The notes under the pieces were generated by a model that did not search any database, was not told where the DNA came from, and saw nothing but the letters and a program-made list of their open reading frames with translations. Position numbers and translations under genes: made by a program. 64,000 bases of DNA. It comes from Acidovorax sp. CF316. GTDB taxonomy: Bacteria; Pseudomonadota; Gammaproteobacteria; Burkholderiales; Burkholderiaceae_C. The DNA is taken from positions 1 to 64,000 of the forward strand of contig NZ_AKJX01000094.1 in the NCBI RefSeq assembly GCF_000276605.1. The letters are read 5' to 3'. The first letter of the stretch is position 1; every line of letters begins with the position of its first letter. This document shows positions 2,413-12,651 of the stretch, in pieces.

Positions 2413-4037
2413 ATGAACCCCAGCATTCAGCTAAGTCAATTTTTCCCGTCGCCTGAAGACATTCCGAGCGAACACAGGCTGGAAACGCCCATCCATCAGC
2501 GCGCGTACGTTGTGAACGGTCAGCTCGCTACATGGTCAGGGGACATGAAGCGCGTGCTGTCGCCGATCTGCGTGCGAGCAACCGACGGTTCGGTGTCCCA
2601 AGTGGAGATTGGCAGCTACCCCGTTATGGGGGTCGCCGAGAGCGACTCGATTCTTGAGGCCGCTGGACAGGCCTACGACAGCGGGCGTGGAGAGTGGCCA
2701 ACGATGCCAGTCTCAAAGCGCATTGAATGCATGCAGGAATTCGTTCGACAGATGGCCGCGCAGCGCGACCTGGTCGTCAAGTTGTTGATGTGGGAAATCG
2801 GAAAGAGCCTCGCCGACTCGCGCAAGGAATTCGACCGAACTGTCGAGTACATCCAGGCCACCATCGTCGCCCTCAAGGCGCAGGACAACGAGAACTCGCG
2901 CTTCACCGTGGTCGAGGGCACCATCGGTCAGGTTCGGCGAACACCTTTGGGCGTGGTGCTGTGCATGGGCCCATACAACTACCCGCTCAACGAGACCTTC
3001 TGCACGCTGATCCCGGCGCTGTTGATGGGGAACACGGTTGTGCTGAAACCGCCGCAGTATGGAACGCTCTTGTTCTGGCCGCTGCTCGAAGCATTTCGGA
3101 CCGCGTTTCCCAAGGGTGTCGTCAATACCATCTACGCTCCCGGCGAGCTGGTCGTGCCGCGCATGTTGGCGAGCGGCAAGGTCAACGTCCTGGCGTTGAT
3201 CGGGTCCAGCCGCGTTGCAGACCATCTCAAGAAGCAGCATCCCAAATCTCACCGCCTACGCGCCGTACTCGGGCTTGACGCGAAGAACGCCGCCATCGTG
3301 CTCCCCGATGCGGATCTCGATGTTGCGGTCAAAGAGTGCGTGCAAGGCGCGCTTTCGTTCAACGGTCAAAGGTGCACAGCACTGAAGATGCTGATCGTGC
3401 ACCAATCGATCGTCGCCGAGTTCATCCGTCGTTTCACCGAGGAGGTTCGCAAGCTCAAGGTGGGCATGCCGTGGGAGGCCGGTGTCAACATCACACCATT
3501 GCCAGGGCCCCATCGCACGGCGTACATGACGGAGGCCATCACCGAAGCCGTGGACAAGGGTGCTGTCGTGGTCAATGCGAATGGAGGCGAGCACTGCGCG
3601 ACCTTGTTCTATCCGGCGGTCGTCTATCCGGTTCGGGAGGGCATGCGCCTTTTCCGGGAGGAGCAGTTCGGGCCCGTCGTGCCGGTGATGACCTTTGACG
3701 ATGTGAAGGAGGCGCTGGACTACGTCATGACCTCCGACCATGGTCAGCAGGTCAGCATCTTCGGCACTGATCCAGACGAGATCGGTGCCCTGGTGGACCC
3801 TCTCGTCAACCAAGTCTGCCGGGTGAATATCAACTGCCAGTGCCAACGTGGTCCAGACGTGTTCCCCTTCGCAGGACGGAAAGACTCCGCTGAAGGGACG
3901 TTGTCTGTAGCCGACGCCCTGAGAGCGTTCTCGATTCGCTCGATGGTTGCCCTGAAAGAGACGGAGAAGAGCAAGCAACTGCTCAACGCCATCGTCCGCG
4001 ACCACAGCTCCAACTTCATCAACACAGGGTTCATTCT

Positions 4038-4041
<4 letters not shown>
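2413..4041 (+). CDS. gapN: Non-phosphorylating NADP-dependent glyceraldehyde-3-phosphate dehydrogenase-like ALDH
   Basis: A 542-residue aldehyde dehydrogenase. It has the nucleotide-binding region (GVVLCMGPYNYPLNE), the catalytic cysteine at residue 321 (SFNGQRCTALK), and a GapN-like C-terminal segment (GPDVFPFAGRKDS). GapN oxidises glyceraldehyde 3-phosphate straight to 3-phosphoglycerate with NADP, bypassing phosphoglycerate kinase without ATP gain. The usual ELGGKN motif reads LGLDAKN at residues 286-292, so the standard general-base glutamate is not at its normal place. Whether this is a subfamily trait or a defect cannot be told here. Pyruvate kinase follows with an overlapping start and enolase follows that, forming a lower-glycolysis operon. 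Substrate is inferred from family and context; another phosphorylated aldehyde is possible. Confidence 0.8.
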
Positions 4042-6766
<2,725 letters not shown>

Positions 6767-7071: not shown

Positions 7072-7956
7072 CTAGCGCCATGCCGTGGCCCACGCATCGG
7101 CCATGGCCGGCGTGTGATAACAAGCAGCCTCGAAGCTCTTGGTGCAGACGGCGCGCTCCAGCAGCTGGATGTCGGCCTCGTGCTGGCGCGCGACGTGTAC
7201 GTCTTCGAAGAAGAGCACCTTGTCGCAGCGCTTGTCGAGCACCAGTTCTGCAATCTGCGCATCGCCGCCCAGCGGGCCGCTACGTAGGAGCTGCACCCAG
7301 GGCAGGTCGCGCGGCCAGCCGCAGGACCAGGCCATTTCGTTGAGCCGGCCGCCTGTGGTGCCGGTGGCAAAGCGTTCCTGCGTCTGTGACAACAGGTCGA
7401 AGTGGCGGAAGGCGAAATCCACCATCGCGGACTTCAAGGCATCGTGGGCGATGAGGGCCACGGATTGTTTGTCGATGGACGGCACCATGGCCGGCGGGCG
7501 CTGGCGCAGCGACACGCCGACCTGCAGCGCAGCCTCCACCGCGATCCATTCGACGGCGGCGGCCACGGTGAGCAGCAGGGGCTTGCCGTGCGAGATGCAC
7601 TGGCGCTTGAGGGCCTGGGCCTCAGGGTACAGCGATGAAGGATCAAGCGGGTCCAGCAGGTAGATGGCCCCGGCCAGTTCCTGCTCGGCATGCACGCCGC
7701 CCGCGATGCGCGAGACCATGCGCATCACCCCGCCCTCGCGGCCGTAGGGCAAACGCAGGAGGCGGGGGAAATGGCCAGCCAGGGCATGGTTCTCGATGGC
7801 GTCGGCGCAGCCGCCAACTGCGGCAATACCCAGTTGCAACTCGGCAAGCGCGCTTCGCGAGGCGGCAGCCCATAGGGCCAAACCACCGTCCGCATTCGAG
7901 CGGTGCAGCCGGTGTGCTGCCAAGCCGAATGATTTTCGAGGATGGCGGTCTACCAC
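7072..7956 (-). CDS. Tandem methylglyoxal-synthase-domain protein
   Basis: About 294 residues holding two MGS-like domains. The C-terminal one (about 160-285) is canonical: VALIAHD, FATGTTGGRL, RSGPLGGDAQ (Asp near 232, the catalytic position in MgsA) and VLFFED (Asp near 252) followed by HEADIQLLERA. The N-terminal one (about 12-145) keeps the fold pattern (GIAAVGG, GAIYLLDPLD, HGKPLLLTVAA), but the phosphate/catalytic loop has become LPYGREGG. MgsA turns DHAP into methylglyoxal and phosphate, and E. coli MgsA is about 150 residues. The likely GTG start at 7956 overlaps otnC by 7 bases. OtnC makes DHAP in known pathways, so a DHAP-using or DHAP-sensing role is plausible; activity is inference. 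Confidence 0.78.
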   Translation of the reverse strand: MVDRHPRKSFGLAAHRLHRSNADGGLALWAAASRSALAELQLGIAAVGGCADAIENHALAGHFPRLLRLPYGREGGVMRMVSRIAGGVHAEQELAGAIYLLDPLDPSSLYPEAQALKRQCISHGKPLLLTVAAAVEWIAVEAALQVGVSLRQRPPAMVPSIDKQSVALIAHDALKSAMVDFAFRHFDLLSQTQERFATGTTGGRLNEMAWSCGWPRDLPWVQLLRSGPLGGDAQIAELVLDKRCDKVLFFEDVHVARQHEADIQLLERAVCTKSFEAACYHTPAMADAWATAWR

Positions 7957-8639
7957 GATGCAGCGAATGTTTCGCGCAACTCCGCCAGATCTGAGTCGCC
8001 CAGGCTGGAACAACTGAAATCCGAGAGCAGCCAAAGTTTGGCGGTCTCTTCCAGTTCTTCCAGCGTGGCCATGGCCTCAGAAGGCGTGCGGTGCCACACA
8101 TTGGGACCTAGCCGGTCGAGCATCACCGCGCGGAGCTGGCGGCCCTTGGAGGCGTATTCGGCAATGAGTTGCGCGACCTCCTGTGCCACGGCGGGTGCGC
8201 CAGGACGCTGGTAGGGCACCAGGGGCACTCGGCCCACCTTCATCACGAAATATGGAGTGATGGGTGGGAGCAATTCACCGCTCTGCTCCAGGTAGCCGCT
8301 TCGCTGCAGCGTAAGCGCGACCAAGTGCGTGCTATGGGTATGCATCACGCAGGCAGCGGGCTGCCCCGTAGCCTCGGTTGCACGGTAGATGGCGCGGTGC
8401 AGCGTGATGGTCTTGCTGGCGCGAGCGCCGCTGAGCTGAGCGCCATCGTCGCCGATGCGCGCCAGTTGCGCCGGGTCCAGAAAGCCCAGGCAGGCATCGG
8501 TGGGCGTGATGAGAAAGCCGCCGCCGTGCTCCGGTGCAAGGCGGGCACTGATGTTGCCGGCCGTGGCGTGCACATAGCCACGTGCGAACAGGCTGGCTCC
8601 CACGCGGCAAATTTCTTCTCGGGCCTGGGATTCGGTCAC
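7950..8639 (-). CDS. otnC: Class II aldolase family, 3-oxo-tetronate 4-phosphate decarboxylase-like
   Basis: 229 residues with the class II aldolase fold: an N-terminal TAGNIS segment, ITPTDACLGFLD, and the metal-binding histidines in VMHTHSTHLVALTL plus a later conserved region. In characterised OtnC pathways this enzyme decarboxylates 3-oxo-tetronate 4-phosphate to dihydroxyacetone phosphate. The OtnK-type kinase two genes upstream supports that assignment over a fuculose-phosphate-type aldolase. Start is GTG at 8639, overlapping the stop of the GntR gene as GTGA. The stop overlaps the start of the MGS-domain gene, so the three genes are probably translationally coupled. Confidence 0.85.
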   Translation of the reverse strand: MTESQAREEICRVGASLFARGYVHATAGNISARLAPEHGGGFLITPTDACLGFLDPAQLARIGDDGAQLSGARASKTITLHRAIYRATEATGQPAACVMHTHSTHLVALTLQRSGYLEQSGELLPPITPYFVMKVGRVPLVPYQRPGAPAVAQEVAQLIAEYASKGRQLRAVMLDRLGPNVWHRTPSEAMATLEELEETAKLWLLSDFSCSSLGDSDLAELRETFAASW

Positions 8640-9553
8640 TCCTCGCTCCCCAGCTTGGTGATGCGCGCGGTGTTAAGGTGCTGACGCAGGAACAGCGACG
8701 CTTCCATGCGTTCGCCGCGCACCAGCAGCTCGATCAACTGCAGGTGCTCTTCGCACTGGCGGTGGAGGCGGCTGCGGTCCAGCAGAGTGCCGTATTCGAC
8801 GATGCGGCGCATCTGGTTGACGTTGCGCAGCGCATCGACCACAAAGCGGTTGCCGCTACCGGCCGCCACGGTTTCATGGAAGTGGCTGCCCGCCTGGAAC
8901 AGCTGCGCTGGTGTGCACTGCTCGATGCCGCCATCGAGCAGTTCCTGCTGTTCCCGACGGCAGCGCTCCAACTCGGCCAGGTCCACGGTGTAGCCAGGTT
9001 CGAGAATGGCAGCGGGCTCCAGCATCATGCGAAAGCGGTAGCTCTCGCGGTGCGATTCGAGGCTTGTGAGCATGCGACGAAAGACCCAGCCGCGCCCGGG
9101 CTTGCGGTCCACCAAGCCGTCCTTGGCCATGGTGTTGAGAAGTCGCTGCATCTGAGGCCTGGCCAAGCCGTATCGGCTCATCAGCTCTACCTCGGTCACC
9201 TCCTGATCGATATAGCCCTTGATGCGATCGCTGGCGATTCGCATGTACGTGTCCTCGCTGGAAACGCCGGCCTCAGAGAGATCAAGACCTTTGATCTCAT
9301 GCGACTCTTTGGCGAGCTGAAATCCCCGGTTCGGATTGGAAGTCACGACCCCGGTGGATTCCAGGAACTGCAAGGCCTTTCTCACTGGCGAGCGAGATAC
9401 GTCCAATGCGTCGCACAACGCTTGCTCCGTGAGACGGTAGCCCTTGGGCAGGCCCTCGCGCTGAACCATCTCCAGAATCTGGGCAGCCAGTTTAGGGATG
9501 AGAGGGCTTACATTCCCACTCGGCGCGATTTCAAGTGCAGCATTGGATTTCAT
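8636..9553 (-). CDS. GntR/FadR-type (FCD) regulator with two winged helices, in the otn operon
   Basis: 305 residues. The first winged helix-turn-helix is at about 20-75 (LCDALDVSRSPVRKALQFLE). A second winged-helix-like block is at about 110-160 (YGLARPQMQRLLNTMAKDG, GRGWVF). An FCD ligand domain follows (SHFHETVAAGSGNRFVVDAL). It aligns along its length with the regulator at 1057-1959, so the two are paralogues sharing the unusual double DNA-binding layout. It sits inside the kinase-decarboxylase operon and overlaps otnC, the usual arrangement for a local pathway regulator. I infer control of the divergent promoters at 12652-12749 and perhaps 1960-2412, with a tetronate or phosphorylated intermediate as ligand. 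Confidence 0.88.
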   Translation of the reverse strand: MKSNAALEIAPSGNVSPLIPKLAAQILEMVQREGLPKGYRLTEQALCDALDVSRSPVRKALQFLESTGVVTSNPNRGFQLAKESHEIKGLDLSEAGVSSEDTYMRIASDRIKGYIDQEVTEVELMSRYGLARPQMQRLLNTMAKDGLVDRKPGRGWVFRRMLTSLESHRESYRFRMMLEPAAILEPGYTVDLAELERCRREQQELLDGGIEQCTPAQLFQAGSHFHETVAAGSGNRFVVDALRNVNQMRRIVEYGTLLDRSRLHRQCEEHLQLIELLVRGERMEASLFLRQHLNTARITKLGSEE

Positions 9554-9563
9554 CGTGAACTCG

Positions 9564-10838
9564 TCAGGTCAGCTGTTCAAAGGCCTTGGTAAAGAAATCA
9601 GTCGTGCCGAAGTTGCCGGACTTCAATGTCACGTGGATTCCCTCGGTCAAAGCATAGCGTGATTGTGCGTGGCACCAGGGGACGCCGGGTGCGATGGCGG
9701 GACCGATGCGCATGCGGTCAATGCCAAGCGCCTGCACGCAAGCACCCGAGGTTTCGCCTCCAGCGACCACCAGTTGCCCCACGCCTTTGGCTACCAACCC
9801 GCGGGCAATCTGGGACAGTGCATGCTCAACCATCTGCCCGGCTTCCTCCACACCGAGCTTTGCCTGGGTGGTTTTCACCGCCTCAGGCTCCGCGGTGGCA
9901 TACACCAGCACAGGCCCGACATCATCGAGCAGCTTGTCTGCCCAAGCCAACGCTTCGGAGACCACGTCCACACCGGCCACGATCTGCATCGGATCAATGG
10001 AGAAAGCGGCACCTCCACGCTGCCGGAAGTCTGCAACCTGTGCATTGGTGGCCACCGAGCAGCTACCGGACACGATTGCACGGCGGCCGCGAGCCGCTGG
10101 CAGTCGTGCGGCCAAGTCGCTGGCACTCACCCCGAAGTTGGCTGGCAGGCCGATGGCGACGCCCGACCCTGCAGTGACCAGGGGCAGCCCGGCCAAGGCG
10201 GGACCCATGGCCAGCAGATCGTCGTTGTCGATGGCATCGACGATGGCGACTTCAACGCCTTCGCTGCGCAACGCGGCAATGCGACTGCTGACGGCGTCAC
10301 TGCCCCGCCTGACGTAGCTGTGATCCACCAGGCCCACGCGCCGCTTGGTCTGCGCCTGCAGCACGCGCACGAGGTTGGAATCGGTCATGGGCGTCAGGGG
10401 ATGGTTCCTCATGCCCGACTCCTGCAGCAACACGTCGCCCGCGAACAGATAGCCCTTGTAGACGGAGCGACCGTTCTCGGGGAACGCGGGGCACGCAATC
10501 GTGAACTCCGTGCCGAGTGCGTCCATGAGCGCATCGGTTACCGGGCCGATGTTGCCTTCTGGCGTGGAGTCGAACGTGGAGCAGTACTTGAAATAGACCT
10601 GCTGCACTTGCTGCGTCCGCAACCATTGGAGCGCAGCGAGCGACTGCTCCACGGCCTGGGTGGCCTGAATCGTGCGTGATTTCAACGCGATCACGATCGC
10701 ATCGACCTCTTCGCTGGGAGGCTCAGACGGAATGCCGATGGTTTGCACCACCCGCATGCCGCTGCGCACCAGGTTGCTGGCCAGGTCGGTCGCGCCGGTG
10801 AAGTCATCGGCGATGCAACCCAGATAGGGTGGTTTCAT
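9564..10838 (-). CDS. otnK: 3-oxo-tetronate kinase (DUF1537, four-carbon acid sugar kinase)
   Basis: 424 residues. The N-terminal sugar-binding domain opens with LGCIADDFTGATDLAS, the hallmark of the four-carbon acid sugar kinases. YFKYCSTFDSTPEGNIGPV and ACPAFPENGRSVYKGYLF follow, and the C-terminal nucleotide-binding domain has GQLVVAGGETSGACVQALG. OtnK phosphorylates 3-oxo-tetronate at O4, feeding OtnC. The adjacent decarboxylase is of the OtnC class II aldolase type, supporting otnK rather than the D-threonate kinase of PdxA2-linked operons. ATG at 10838 was chosen; GTG at 10844 is also in frame. Ten bases separate it from the downstream GntR gene. Confidence 0.88.
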   Translation of the reverse strand: MKPPYLGCIADDFTGATDLASNLVRSGMRVVQTIGIPSEPPSEEVDAIVIALKSRTIQATQAVEQSLAALQWLRTQQVQQVYFKYCSTFDSTPEGNIGPVTDALMDALGTEFTIACPAFPENGRSVYKGYLFAGDVLLQESGMRNHPLTPMTDSNLVRVLQAQTKRRVGLVDHSYVRRGSDAVSSRIAALRSEGVEVAIVDAIDNDDLLAMGPALAGLPLVTAGSGVAIGLPANFGVSASDLAARLPAARGRRAIVSGSCSVATNAQVADFRQRGGAAFSIDPMQIVAGVDVVSEALAWADKLLDDVGPVLVYATAEPEAVKTTQAKLGVEEAGQMVEHALSQIARGLVAKGVGQLVVAGGETSGACVQALGIDRMRIGPAIAPGVPWCHAQSRYALTEGIHVTLKSGNFGTTDFFTKAFEQLT

Positions 10839-10853
10839 GGGCACCGTCCAGAC

Positions 10854-11927
10854 TCAGGCGGCTGCCACGGCATCCGCCACGGCCGTGGCGAAGGCCTTGC
10901 AGCCGATGCTTCCGCCGATATCAGCAGTGCGGGTCGCGGGGTTCTCCAGCACCTTGTCCACTGCTGTCTCGATGGCCTTGGCAGCCTGCTTGAGCTTGGC
11001 GTCGCCACGCTTGTCGCCGAGCCAGGCCACCATCATCGCGACGGACAGGATCATGGAGGTAGGGTTGGCCTTGTCCTGGCCCGCAATGGTAGGGGCCGAG
11101 CCGTGCTGCGCCTGGGCGCAGCAGTTCGTATCGCTGGCCATGATGGAACCTGCCAGACCCAGGCTGCCCGAGAGTTCGCTGCACAGGTCCGAGAGGATGT
11201 CGCCGTAGAAGTTGGTGGCCACCAGCACGTCGAAGCGCTCCGGCTCCTTGACCAAATGGGCAGTGGAGGCATCGACCAGCAGATCGTCCAGCACCACCTC
11301 CGGGAAATCCTTGGCGACATGGCGCACGGCTTCGAGGAACAGGCCGTCGGTCATGTGGAAGCTGTTGGCCTTGTGGATGGCGGTGACGCGCTTCTTGCGG
11401 GTCATGGCCAGCTCGAAGGCGCGGCGCGCGATGCGCTCGCTGCAGTGGCGGGTGATCTTGCGCGTGGACAGCGCCATATCGGGACTGGGCATGACCTCAC
11501 CCCAGCCGCGCGACATGTTGCGGTCTGGGTAGAAGCCCTCGGTGGCTTCGCGCATGATGACCAGGTCCATGGTCTTGCCTTCGCGCATGTTGGACTGCAG
11601 GAAAGGCCGAGTGCGTGCGGGGCGCACGTTGGCGTACAGGTCCAGACCGATGCGGTAGGCAGCGGACACGTTGCGACCGCCCTTCTCAGGCGGGGGGTAG
11701 TCGGCATGCGACTGCGTGCCCAGGATGATGCCGTCGTAGGTCTTCGAGCGTTCCAGCAGCTCGTCGCGGATGGTGACCCCGTACTTTTCCAGACTCGCGA
11801 AGCCCAGGTCTTCATAGTCGAATTGGAAGTCCAGGCCGAAGCGAGTGCCGGCTGCCTTCAGCACGCGCACGGATGCGTCAACGATTTCGGGGCCGATGCC
11901 GTCGCAGGGCAGAACGATGAATTTCAT
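10854..11927 (-). CDS. Isocitrate/isopropylmalate dehydrogenase-family (beta-decarboxylating type) enzyme
   Basis: 357 residues. It begins with the family pattern LPCDGIGPEIVDAS and carries YANVRPAR (substrate arginines), an active-site lysine in VTAIHKANSF, metal-binding aspartates in TNFYGDILSDL, and the NAD-binding block HGSAPTIAGQDKANP. Such enzymes oxidise a 2-hydroxyacid with NAD and may decarboxylate it; tartrate and D-malate dehydrogenases are members. Known otn loci generally use a LtnD-type dehydrogenase, and none is visible here, so I infer this protein supplies the oxidation step on a C4 sugar acid. A GGAG sequence lies before the ATG at 11927. It is not PdxA: the fold signature is that of isopropylmalate dehydrogenase. 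Confidence 0.82.
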   Translation of the reverse strand: MKFIVLPCDGIGPEIVDASVRVLKAAGTRFGLDFQFDYEDLGFASLEKYGVTIRDELLERSKTYDGIILGTQSHADYPPPEKGGRNVSAAYRIGLDLYANVRPARTRPFLQSNMREGKTMDLVIMREATEGFYPDRNMSRGWGEVMPSPDMALSTRKITRHCSERIARRAFELAMTRKKRVTAIHKANSFHMTDGLFLEAVRHVAKDFPEVVLDDLLVDASTAHLVKEPERFDVLVATNFYGDILSDLCSELSGSLGLAGSIMASDTNCCAQAQHGSAPTIAGQDKANPTSMILSVAMMVAWLGDKRGDAKLKQAAKAIETAVDKVLENPATRTADIGGSIGCKAFATAVADAVAAA

Positions 11928-11958: not shown

Positions 11959-12651
11959 CTAGGGGGTGGTGGCGGAATGTTCAACGGAACGCCTGAGCAG
12001 CTTTACCGCGCTGTCAGGGCTTGAAAGGACTGGCCGACGCGTCTCCGCTTCGACACGGCTCCTCATGTGCGAGGTAGAGAACTGGCCCAGCATGATCACG
12101 TCACAGTCGATGAGTTCCTGTGCGGCCTTGCTGACCAGGGTGTCATGGATCTCGACGTTGCCTTCGCTCAGCGCCTTCAGCGCGCCGTCTGGGCACTCGA
12201 CTTTCAGCACGTAGTCCAAATTCAACTTGGCTGCGAGTTCGCGAAGCTCTTCCTTCATGCTCGACACAGAGGGCGCGAACGTCGAAACCATTCCTATCTT
12301 TCCTGTGCGCCCAAGCTTTGCGCACACGCCCAACGCTTCGCCAAACATCGCTTCGTTGGGTTTCAACGTGGGCAGGTCAACACCTTCTGCGGCCGAGTCA
12401 ATGGCCGGGCCGAACGCTGAGCATGTGAAGAGGACGCCTTTCACTCCAGCACTTTCCGCGTAGCGCGTCAGGGAATGGAACCGGGCCGTGAGGCCTCCGG
12501 TGATTTCGCCTGCCTCTGCAAGGTCAACAGACAGGCTGTCGTCAAGCAGGTTCATGCAGTAGGCCTCAGGCCAAAGACGCGCAAAGGCGTCCTCGATTGG
12601 ACGGATCGCTAAGGGAGTGGCATGTATCAAAGCAATTTTTGGTGCATTCAT
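11959..12651 (-). CDS. Asp/Glu/hydantoin racemase-family protein
   Basis: About 230 residues from the ATG at 12651 (MNAPKIALIHATPLAIRPIE); a longer frame to 12747 would run into the divergent promoter. The first conserved cysteine region is VLFTCSAFGPAID. The second half (VDLPTLKPNE onward, then CDVIMLGQFST) lacks an obvious second cysteine at the usual spot, where the motif reads LGQFS. Two-cysteine racemases need both, so a classic racemase reaction is uncertain and a lyase or isomerase role is possible. It is the first gene of the minus-strand otn operon, directly behind the shared control region. Confidence 0.72.
   Translation of the reverse strand: MNAPKIALIHATPLAIRPIEDAFARLWPEAYCMNLLDDSLSVDLAEAGEITGGLTARFHSLTRYAESAGVKGVLFTCSAFGPAIDSAAEGVDLPTLKPNEAMFGEALGVCAKLGRTGKIGMVSTFAPSVSSMKEELRELAAKLNLDYVLKVECPDGALKALSEGNVEIHDTLVSKAAQELIDCDVIMLGQFSTSHMRSRVEAETRRPVLSSPDSAVKLLRRSVEHSATTP

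Follow-up and report, generated by a model that had tools for sequence, protein, structure and literature searches.

A two-domain protein joining a non-catalytic and a predicted catalytic methylglyoxal synthase domain in Acidovorax sp. CF316 and its relatives

We analyzed a stretch of 64,000 nucleotides from Acidovorax sp. CF316 (contig NZ_AKJX01000094.1, positions 1 to 64,000), referred to here as the window. A row of genes on its minus strand ends with a gene for a protein of two halves, both resembling methylglyoxal synthase (MGS). The following features are relevant here:

7072..7956, minus strand: tandem MGS gene, 294 aa, with a GTG start at 7954-7956 and a TAG stop at 7072-7074
7519..7941, minus strand: N-terminal half (N-half), residues 6-146, MGS fold without catalytic residues (pseudo-MGS)
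7075..7470, minus strand: C-terminal half (C-half), residues about 163-294, MGS with the active-site residues H171, D172, K175, T198, T200, T201, S226, D232, H259 and D262
7950..8639, minus strand: otnC-like gene, whose 3' end shares 7 bases with the start of the MGS gene
8636..9553, minus strand: GntR/FCD regulator (Pfam), upstream of the MGS gene and in the same direction
9564..10844, minus strand: otnK, 3-oxo-tetronate kinase (632 bits against a cut-off of 350)
10854..11927, minus strand: isocitrate/isopropylmalate dehydrogenase-family gene (Iso_dh; Pfam)
11959..12651, minus strand: Asp/Glu/hydantoin racemase-like gene, start by gene calling (a longer open reading frame reaches 12747)

The original prediction had reported an open reading frame at 7072-7956 without its strand. 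The frame exists and lies on the minus strand; the plus-strand frame at the same positions is interrupted by stops. The proposed overlap with otnC is also present, the GTG start of the MGS gene overlapping the otnC stop. OtnC is the best model for the product of 7950-8639, with 216 bits, which is under the cut-off of 250. Between 9564 and 12651, the Iso_dh and racemase-like genes occupy the places expected for LtnD and OtnI, and the operon is possibly a variant tetronate route. PMC12540250 gives dihydroxyacetone phosphate (DHAP) as the product of OtnC. On the plus strand, genes for a GapN-like aldehyde dehydrogenase, a pyruvate kinase (pyk) and an enolase (eno) form a cassette at 2413-6766 that faces the otn operon and could be devoted to converting triose phosphate to pyruvate; its enolase is one of two found in the genome.

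The C-half passed the NCBIfam MGS model NF003559 with 97.7 bits (cut-off 84), and its best match among solved MGS chains in the PDB was 1wo8 (E 9.5e-16). Against the stricter TIGR00160 it scored 78.8 bits, under the cut-off of 146.9, and in a Pfam search of the window protein neither half matched at E<=1. Residues were compared in a table of 57 tandem proteins, left from 61 loci after removal of identical sequences, with 20 single-domain MGS of the same family and E. coli MgsA. All 57 C-halves keep H19, D20, K23, T45, T47, T48, S65, G66, D71, H98 and D101 (E. coli numbers), which we take to be the catalytic and phosphate-binding residues of MgsA. Compared with E. coli MgsA, a conserved insert of about 9 residues lies between the TGTTG and SGPxGGD loops of the C-half, and the C-terminal tail with R150 is missing from 56 of 57 C-halves, as it is from all 20 single-domain MGS. 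The R107 position is retained in both halves of all 57 proteins.

It had also been proposed that both halves share the MGS fold, and this was borne out, for the C-half by NF003559 and 1wo8 and for the N-half by sequence profiles and a structure model. When a profile of 36 N-halves was searched against the PDB, MGS chains made up the top 11 of 12 matches, the best being 1wo8 (E 1.2e-4), the first match alone falling below 0.001. An hhalign comparison of 28 N-halves with E. coli MgsA and the 20 single-domain MGS gave 97.5% and an E value of 5.4e-12 across 122 columns, so that MGS similarity is seen in family alignments as well. Other comparisons gave weaker signals: Pfam MGS was matched by one of 36 N-halves (E 0.035), NF003559 detected the N-half in 14 of 56 tandem genomes with weak E values between 9.4e-6 and 7.9e-4, and the shallow profiles of the two halves, compared with each other by hhalign, gave 7.2%.

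The N-half was also modeled alone (pLDDT 91.6, pTM 0.87). Foldseek placed MGS structures best (6.2e-8), and superposition gave Z 19.0 and 1.7 Å over 125 residues with the Thermus MGS 2x8w and Z 17.3 with the E. coli MGS 1b93. As 21 of the 27 rows of the underlying alignment were MGS from viral contigs, the model leans to the MGS fold; the sequence profiles are independent of these rows and agree on MGS. A full-length model (6 sequences) reached a pLDDT of 44.5, too low to read the domain packing. Next to MGS, the N-half model resembled the MGS-fold domains of carbamoyl-phosphate synthetase (CPS; 1a9x, 2yvq), with Z 12.6, and of PurH/ATIC, with Z about 9. Both in sequence and in fold, however, it is closest to true MGS.

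The catalytic positions of the N-half are replaced throughout the family. At the D71 position all 57 proteins carry leucine (51) or valine (6), and histidine occurs at the H98 position in none. The T45 position is valine in 57 of 57, D20 is arginine in 56 and lysine in one, K23 is histidine (31), arginine (21) or glutamine (5), and D101 is glutamate in 57 of 57; threonine is retained at T48 in 42. The motif LPYGREGG does align with SGPLGGD of the active half, as originally read. The same reading had the FFED aspartate missing from the N-half, which was wrong: E. coli D91 corresponds to D102 there, an aspartate in 57 of 57. With D71 and H98 lost from every N-half, the joining of a non-catalytic half to a catalytically intact one is a property of the whole family and not of the window protein alone. 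For two longer relatives (see below) and for family f63, the catalytic residues were read by eye, outside the table of 57.

How the changed pocket evolves bears on whether the N-half is a structural scaffold alone, which fills oligomer positions or stabilizes the C-half and has no ligand or regulatory role. We regard this as possible but rather doubtful. MGS is known as an oligomer, the N-half retains both the fold and the R107 position (57/57), and its 11 changed pocket positions are conserved no more than the average column (P 0.26), all of which a scaffold would explain. Extra conservation was found for 17 pocket positions (P 0.005), carried by kept glycines, prolines and acids. Against a mere scaffold, some replaced positions are near-fixed, namely arginine for D20, valine for T45 and glutamate for D101.

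Purifying selection acts on both halves. Against the four nearest relatives, which include the second copy of the same assembly, the N-half had a dN/dS of 0.086-0.118 and the C-half one of 0.020-0.058. Across all 1170 usable pairs, with synonymous sites near saturation, the medians were 0.375 and 0.316, respectively. The values against the nearest relatives make it very improbable that the N-half is a functionless, decaying copy. Its catalytic residues are lost and it evolves somewhat faster (mean identity 60.5% against 69.5% for the C-half), as decay would predict; yet besides its low dN/dS it has 23 invariant positions across the 57 proteins and is present in carriers from several families.

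The search for further two-domain homologues, suggested with the original prediction, found the tandem form in 70 genomes, of which 62 belong to the order of the window (Burkholderiales). Using the window protein, it was detected within the genus Acidovorax in 14 of 47 genomes and within the taxonomic family in 37 of 399. The N-half profile matched in 17 of 399 genomes of the order (13 of those outside the family), in 6 of 369 of the class (4 new) and in 12 of 398 of the phylum, 3 of which were new tandem carriers; one phylum-level match (G136) is a single-domain MGS. Both halves are present in each of the six genomes of family f63. Two long forms were also obtained, one in the class-level search (G1027) and one (G1546) from a search in which 2 of 54 genomes matched.

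The tandem protein seems to replace the usual MGS enzyme, since all 70 NF003559 matches at E<=0.001 in the 56 tandem genomes scanned fall within the tandem gene. A second, separate MGS was found with this model and threshold in none of the 56. The scan covered 56 of the 62 tandem genomes then known and left out G000, G425, G614, G670, G672 and G699. The genome of the window carries the tandem gene twice and gave no other match at E<=0.001. The second copy (L068:7349-8233, plus strand; G000, contig C90) is 90% identical and lies in a different neighbourhood; because the assembly has 4.85% contamination, it could be foreign. In the family of 399 genomes, where up to 6 candidates per genome were scored, 82 other genomes had a match to the C-half only. 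None of these overlapped with the 37 tandem carriers, where an overlap of 7.6 would be expected (Fisher P 0.00018, without correction for relatedness). The 82 count as single-domain carriers by this C-half-only match, a definition that a dissimilar upstream domain would escape; 20 were sampled for the residue table, their proteins trimmed 14 residues before the match.

In a tree of 76 rows, one branch separates 24 N-halves and another 24 C-halves, both with support of 100/100, consistent with the fused form having arisen once. N-halves and C-halves do not emerge as sister groups. The C-halves cluster with the MGS of E. coli and viruses (96/91), and a very long branch, of 4.7 changes per column, leads to the N-halves. 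With few columns and long branches, the tree is compatible with a duplication inside one gene as well as with the joining of two MGS genes.

To place the gene in its surroundings, 46 stretches were taken, and the gene caller placed the tandem gene in 37 of these and not in 9; two of the 37 (L046 and L069) cover one place, leaving 36 different neighbourhoods. Two of the 37 have an otn arrangement, one being the window and the other a Xylophilus MAG (L048). In the latter, racemase, dehydrogenase, otnK, regulator, otnC and MGS follow in the same order as in the window, and the GTG start of the MGS gene again overlaps the otnC stop. The remaining 35 lack an otn operon, and those read by eye have no clear link to DHAP. 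The predicted connection to OtnC and DHAP is thus real and recurs in a second lineage, but with 2 of 37 neighbourhoods it is too rare to define the role of the family. A general linkage of tandem MGS and otn was rejected for the same count. Among the other surroundings, read by eye, are six loci in which the tandem MGS lies behind an apparent isc operon, and a PBP1C-like gene (cluster 1) near the tandem MGS in 13 of the 46 stretches. A further stretch (L104) contains a gene for pyruvate kinase that shares 61% identity with that of the window.

The otn context raises the question of whether the protein might instead catalyze a different reaction, as a lyase or isomerase with a related phosphate ester as its substrate, for instance an intermediate of the tetronate pathway. 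The overlap with otnC and the common operon in two lineages would be in line with this, as would the missed TIGR00160 cut-off and the position of the C-halves on their own long branch with a conserved insert. Nevertheless, we consider another reaction improbable: the MGS residues of the C-half are intact in 57 of 57 proteins, the tandem gene occurs where no other MGS was found, and otn genes are missing from 35 of 37 neighbourhoods. That the protein substitutes for triosephosphate isomerase was also considered but dropped, as the genome has TIM.

The two long forms lie next to other genes of sugar metabolism. In G1546, glpD, a DJ-1/PfpI gene and a 658-aa tandem MGS follow one another on the same strand (L214:4646-9170, minus), the glpD product scoring 365 bits against a cut-off of 360; a GlpR-like regulator, glpK and a glpF-like gene lie nearby (by eye). 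The product of GlpD is DHAP. The row looks like a unit leading from glycerol through DHAP and methylglyoxal to lactate. PfpI of P. aeruginosa is described in PMC11987610 as a methylglyoxalase that converts methylglyoxal to lactate. In G1027, a form of 537 aa (as cut) lies behind edd and an apparent eda (by eye). Both long forms score under the NF003559 cut-off (71.0 and 83.5 against 84).

The C-terminus of the G1546 long form matched the Pfam Sugar-bind effector domain (PF04198; SorC/DeoR-type regulators) with E 3.3e-9 and 36.7 bits (cut-off 27), the match spanning profile positions 178-256 of 257 alone, that is, the last third. The same stretch gave weak PDB matches (best E 0.046) and a match to the DeoR model NF053881 with E 1.9e-5, far under that model's cut-off. 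Sugar-bind domains are normally found within transcription regulators. The window protein does not have the domain, and neither, by Pfam, does the G1027 long form, whose C-terminal extension had no Pfam match.

That two distant relatives carry a C-terminal extension, one of them partly matching a sugar-binding effector domain, speaks against pure scaffolding. The MGS-fold domain of CPS is non-catalytic and regulatory, and a PDB title among the matches of the N-half model names IMP as an allosteric ligand of the CPS domain. Because G1546 partly matches the effector domain and the CPS regulatory domain is the next structural match after MGS, allosteric sensing by the N-half is plausible by analogy. 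The Sugar-bind fusion and the placement near triose-phosphate genes suggest regulation over pure scaffolding, but the fusion is foreign to the window protein and the changed pocket is without special conservation.

Taken with moderate confidence, our preferred reading is that of a working MGS with an inbuilt non-catalytic pseudo-subunit, scaffolding or allosteric, which in the window would act on DHAP as a valve. The C-half is predicted to convert DHAP to methylglyoxal and phosphate. The N-half would have lost catalysis and been retained as a pseudo-subunit in an MGS-type oligomer, in the simplest picture a pseudo-hexamer of three tandem chains, where it may hold the active half in place or tune it allosterically. 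As the last gene of a predicted tetronate-degradation operon, in which OtnC should supply DHAP, the window MGS could serve as an overflow valve for DHAP with release of phosphate. We infer MGS activity, oligomer architecture, allostery and the overflow role alike. More tentatively, and with clearly less confidence, we propose a regulated methylglyoxal valve in which the dead MGS domain, in some lineages together with a sugar-binding domain of SorC type, would sense a sugar phosphate and act as a gate on the active domain. Such a valve would recur in operons feeding triose phosphate (otn, glp, Entner-Doudoroff), once with a methylglyoxalase-family gene.

Solved MGS chains are single-domain proteins of 126-178 aa, whereas the tandem protein has two domains, one of them non-catalytic. 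With MgsA (NF003559, TIGR00160; E. coli 1b93, Thermus 1wo8 and 2x8w), the C-half shares the catalytic residues and the N-half the fold. In CPS and PurH/ATIC the MGS fold is joined to unrelated enzymes, whereas here a non-catalytic MGS fold is joined to MGS. MGS itself is known; among the papers listed by a full-text literature search, with most subscription journals outside its coverage, none described a tandem MGS.

The deliberate synthesis of toxic methylglyoxal, and how MGS is restrained, is an old question. A natural, widely conserved pair of an enzyme and its dead copy is a ready system for testing control from subunit to subunit, and the dead half singles out positions that matter for assembly or sensing and not for chemistry. 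Annotation can conceal this architecture: a plasmid relative of the tandem MGS is plainly annotated as 'methylglyoxal synthase'.

Relatives of MGS are also encoded by viruses. Searching viral contigs with the tandem profiles found no relative. In IMG/VR, 66 contigs (L131-L196) encode MGS relatives. The 31 viral translations examined carry an SGPxGGD motif and one of TGTTG or TGTTA type; in several, long inserts separate the two loops. Judged by these motifs, they are possibly phage-borne methylglyoxal synthases.
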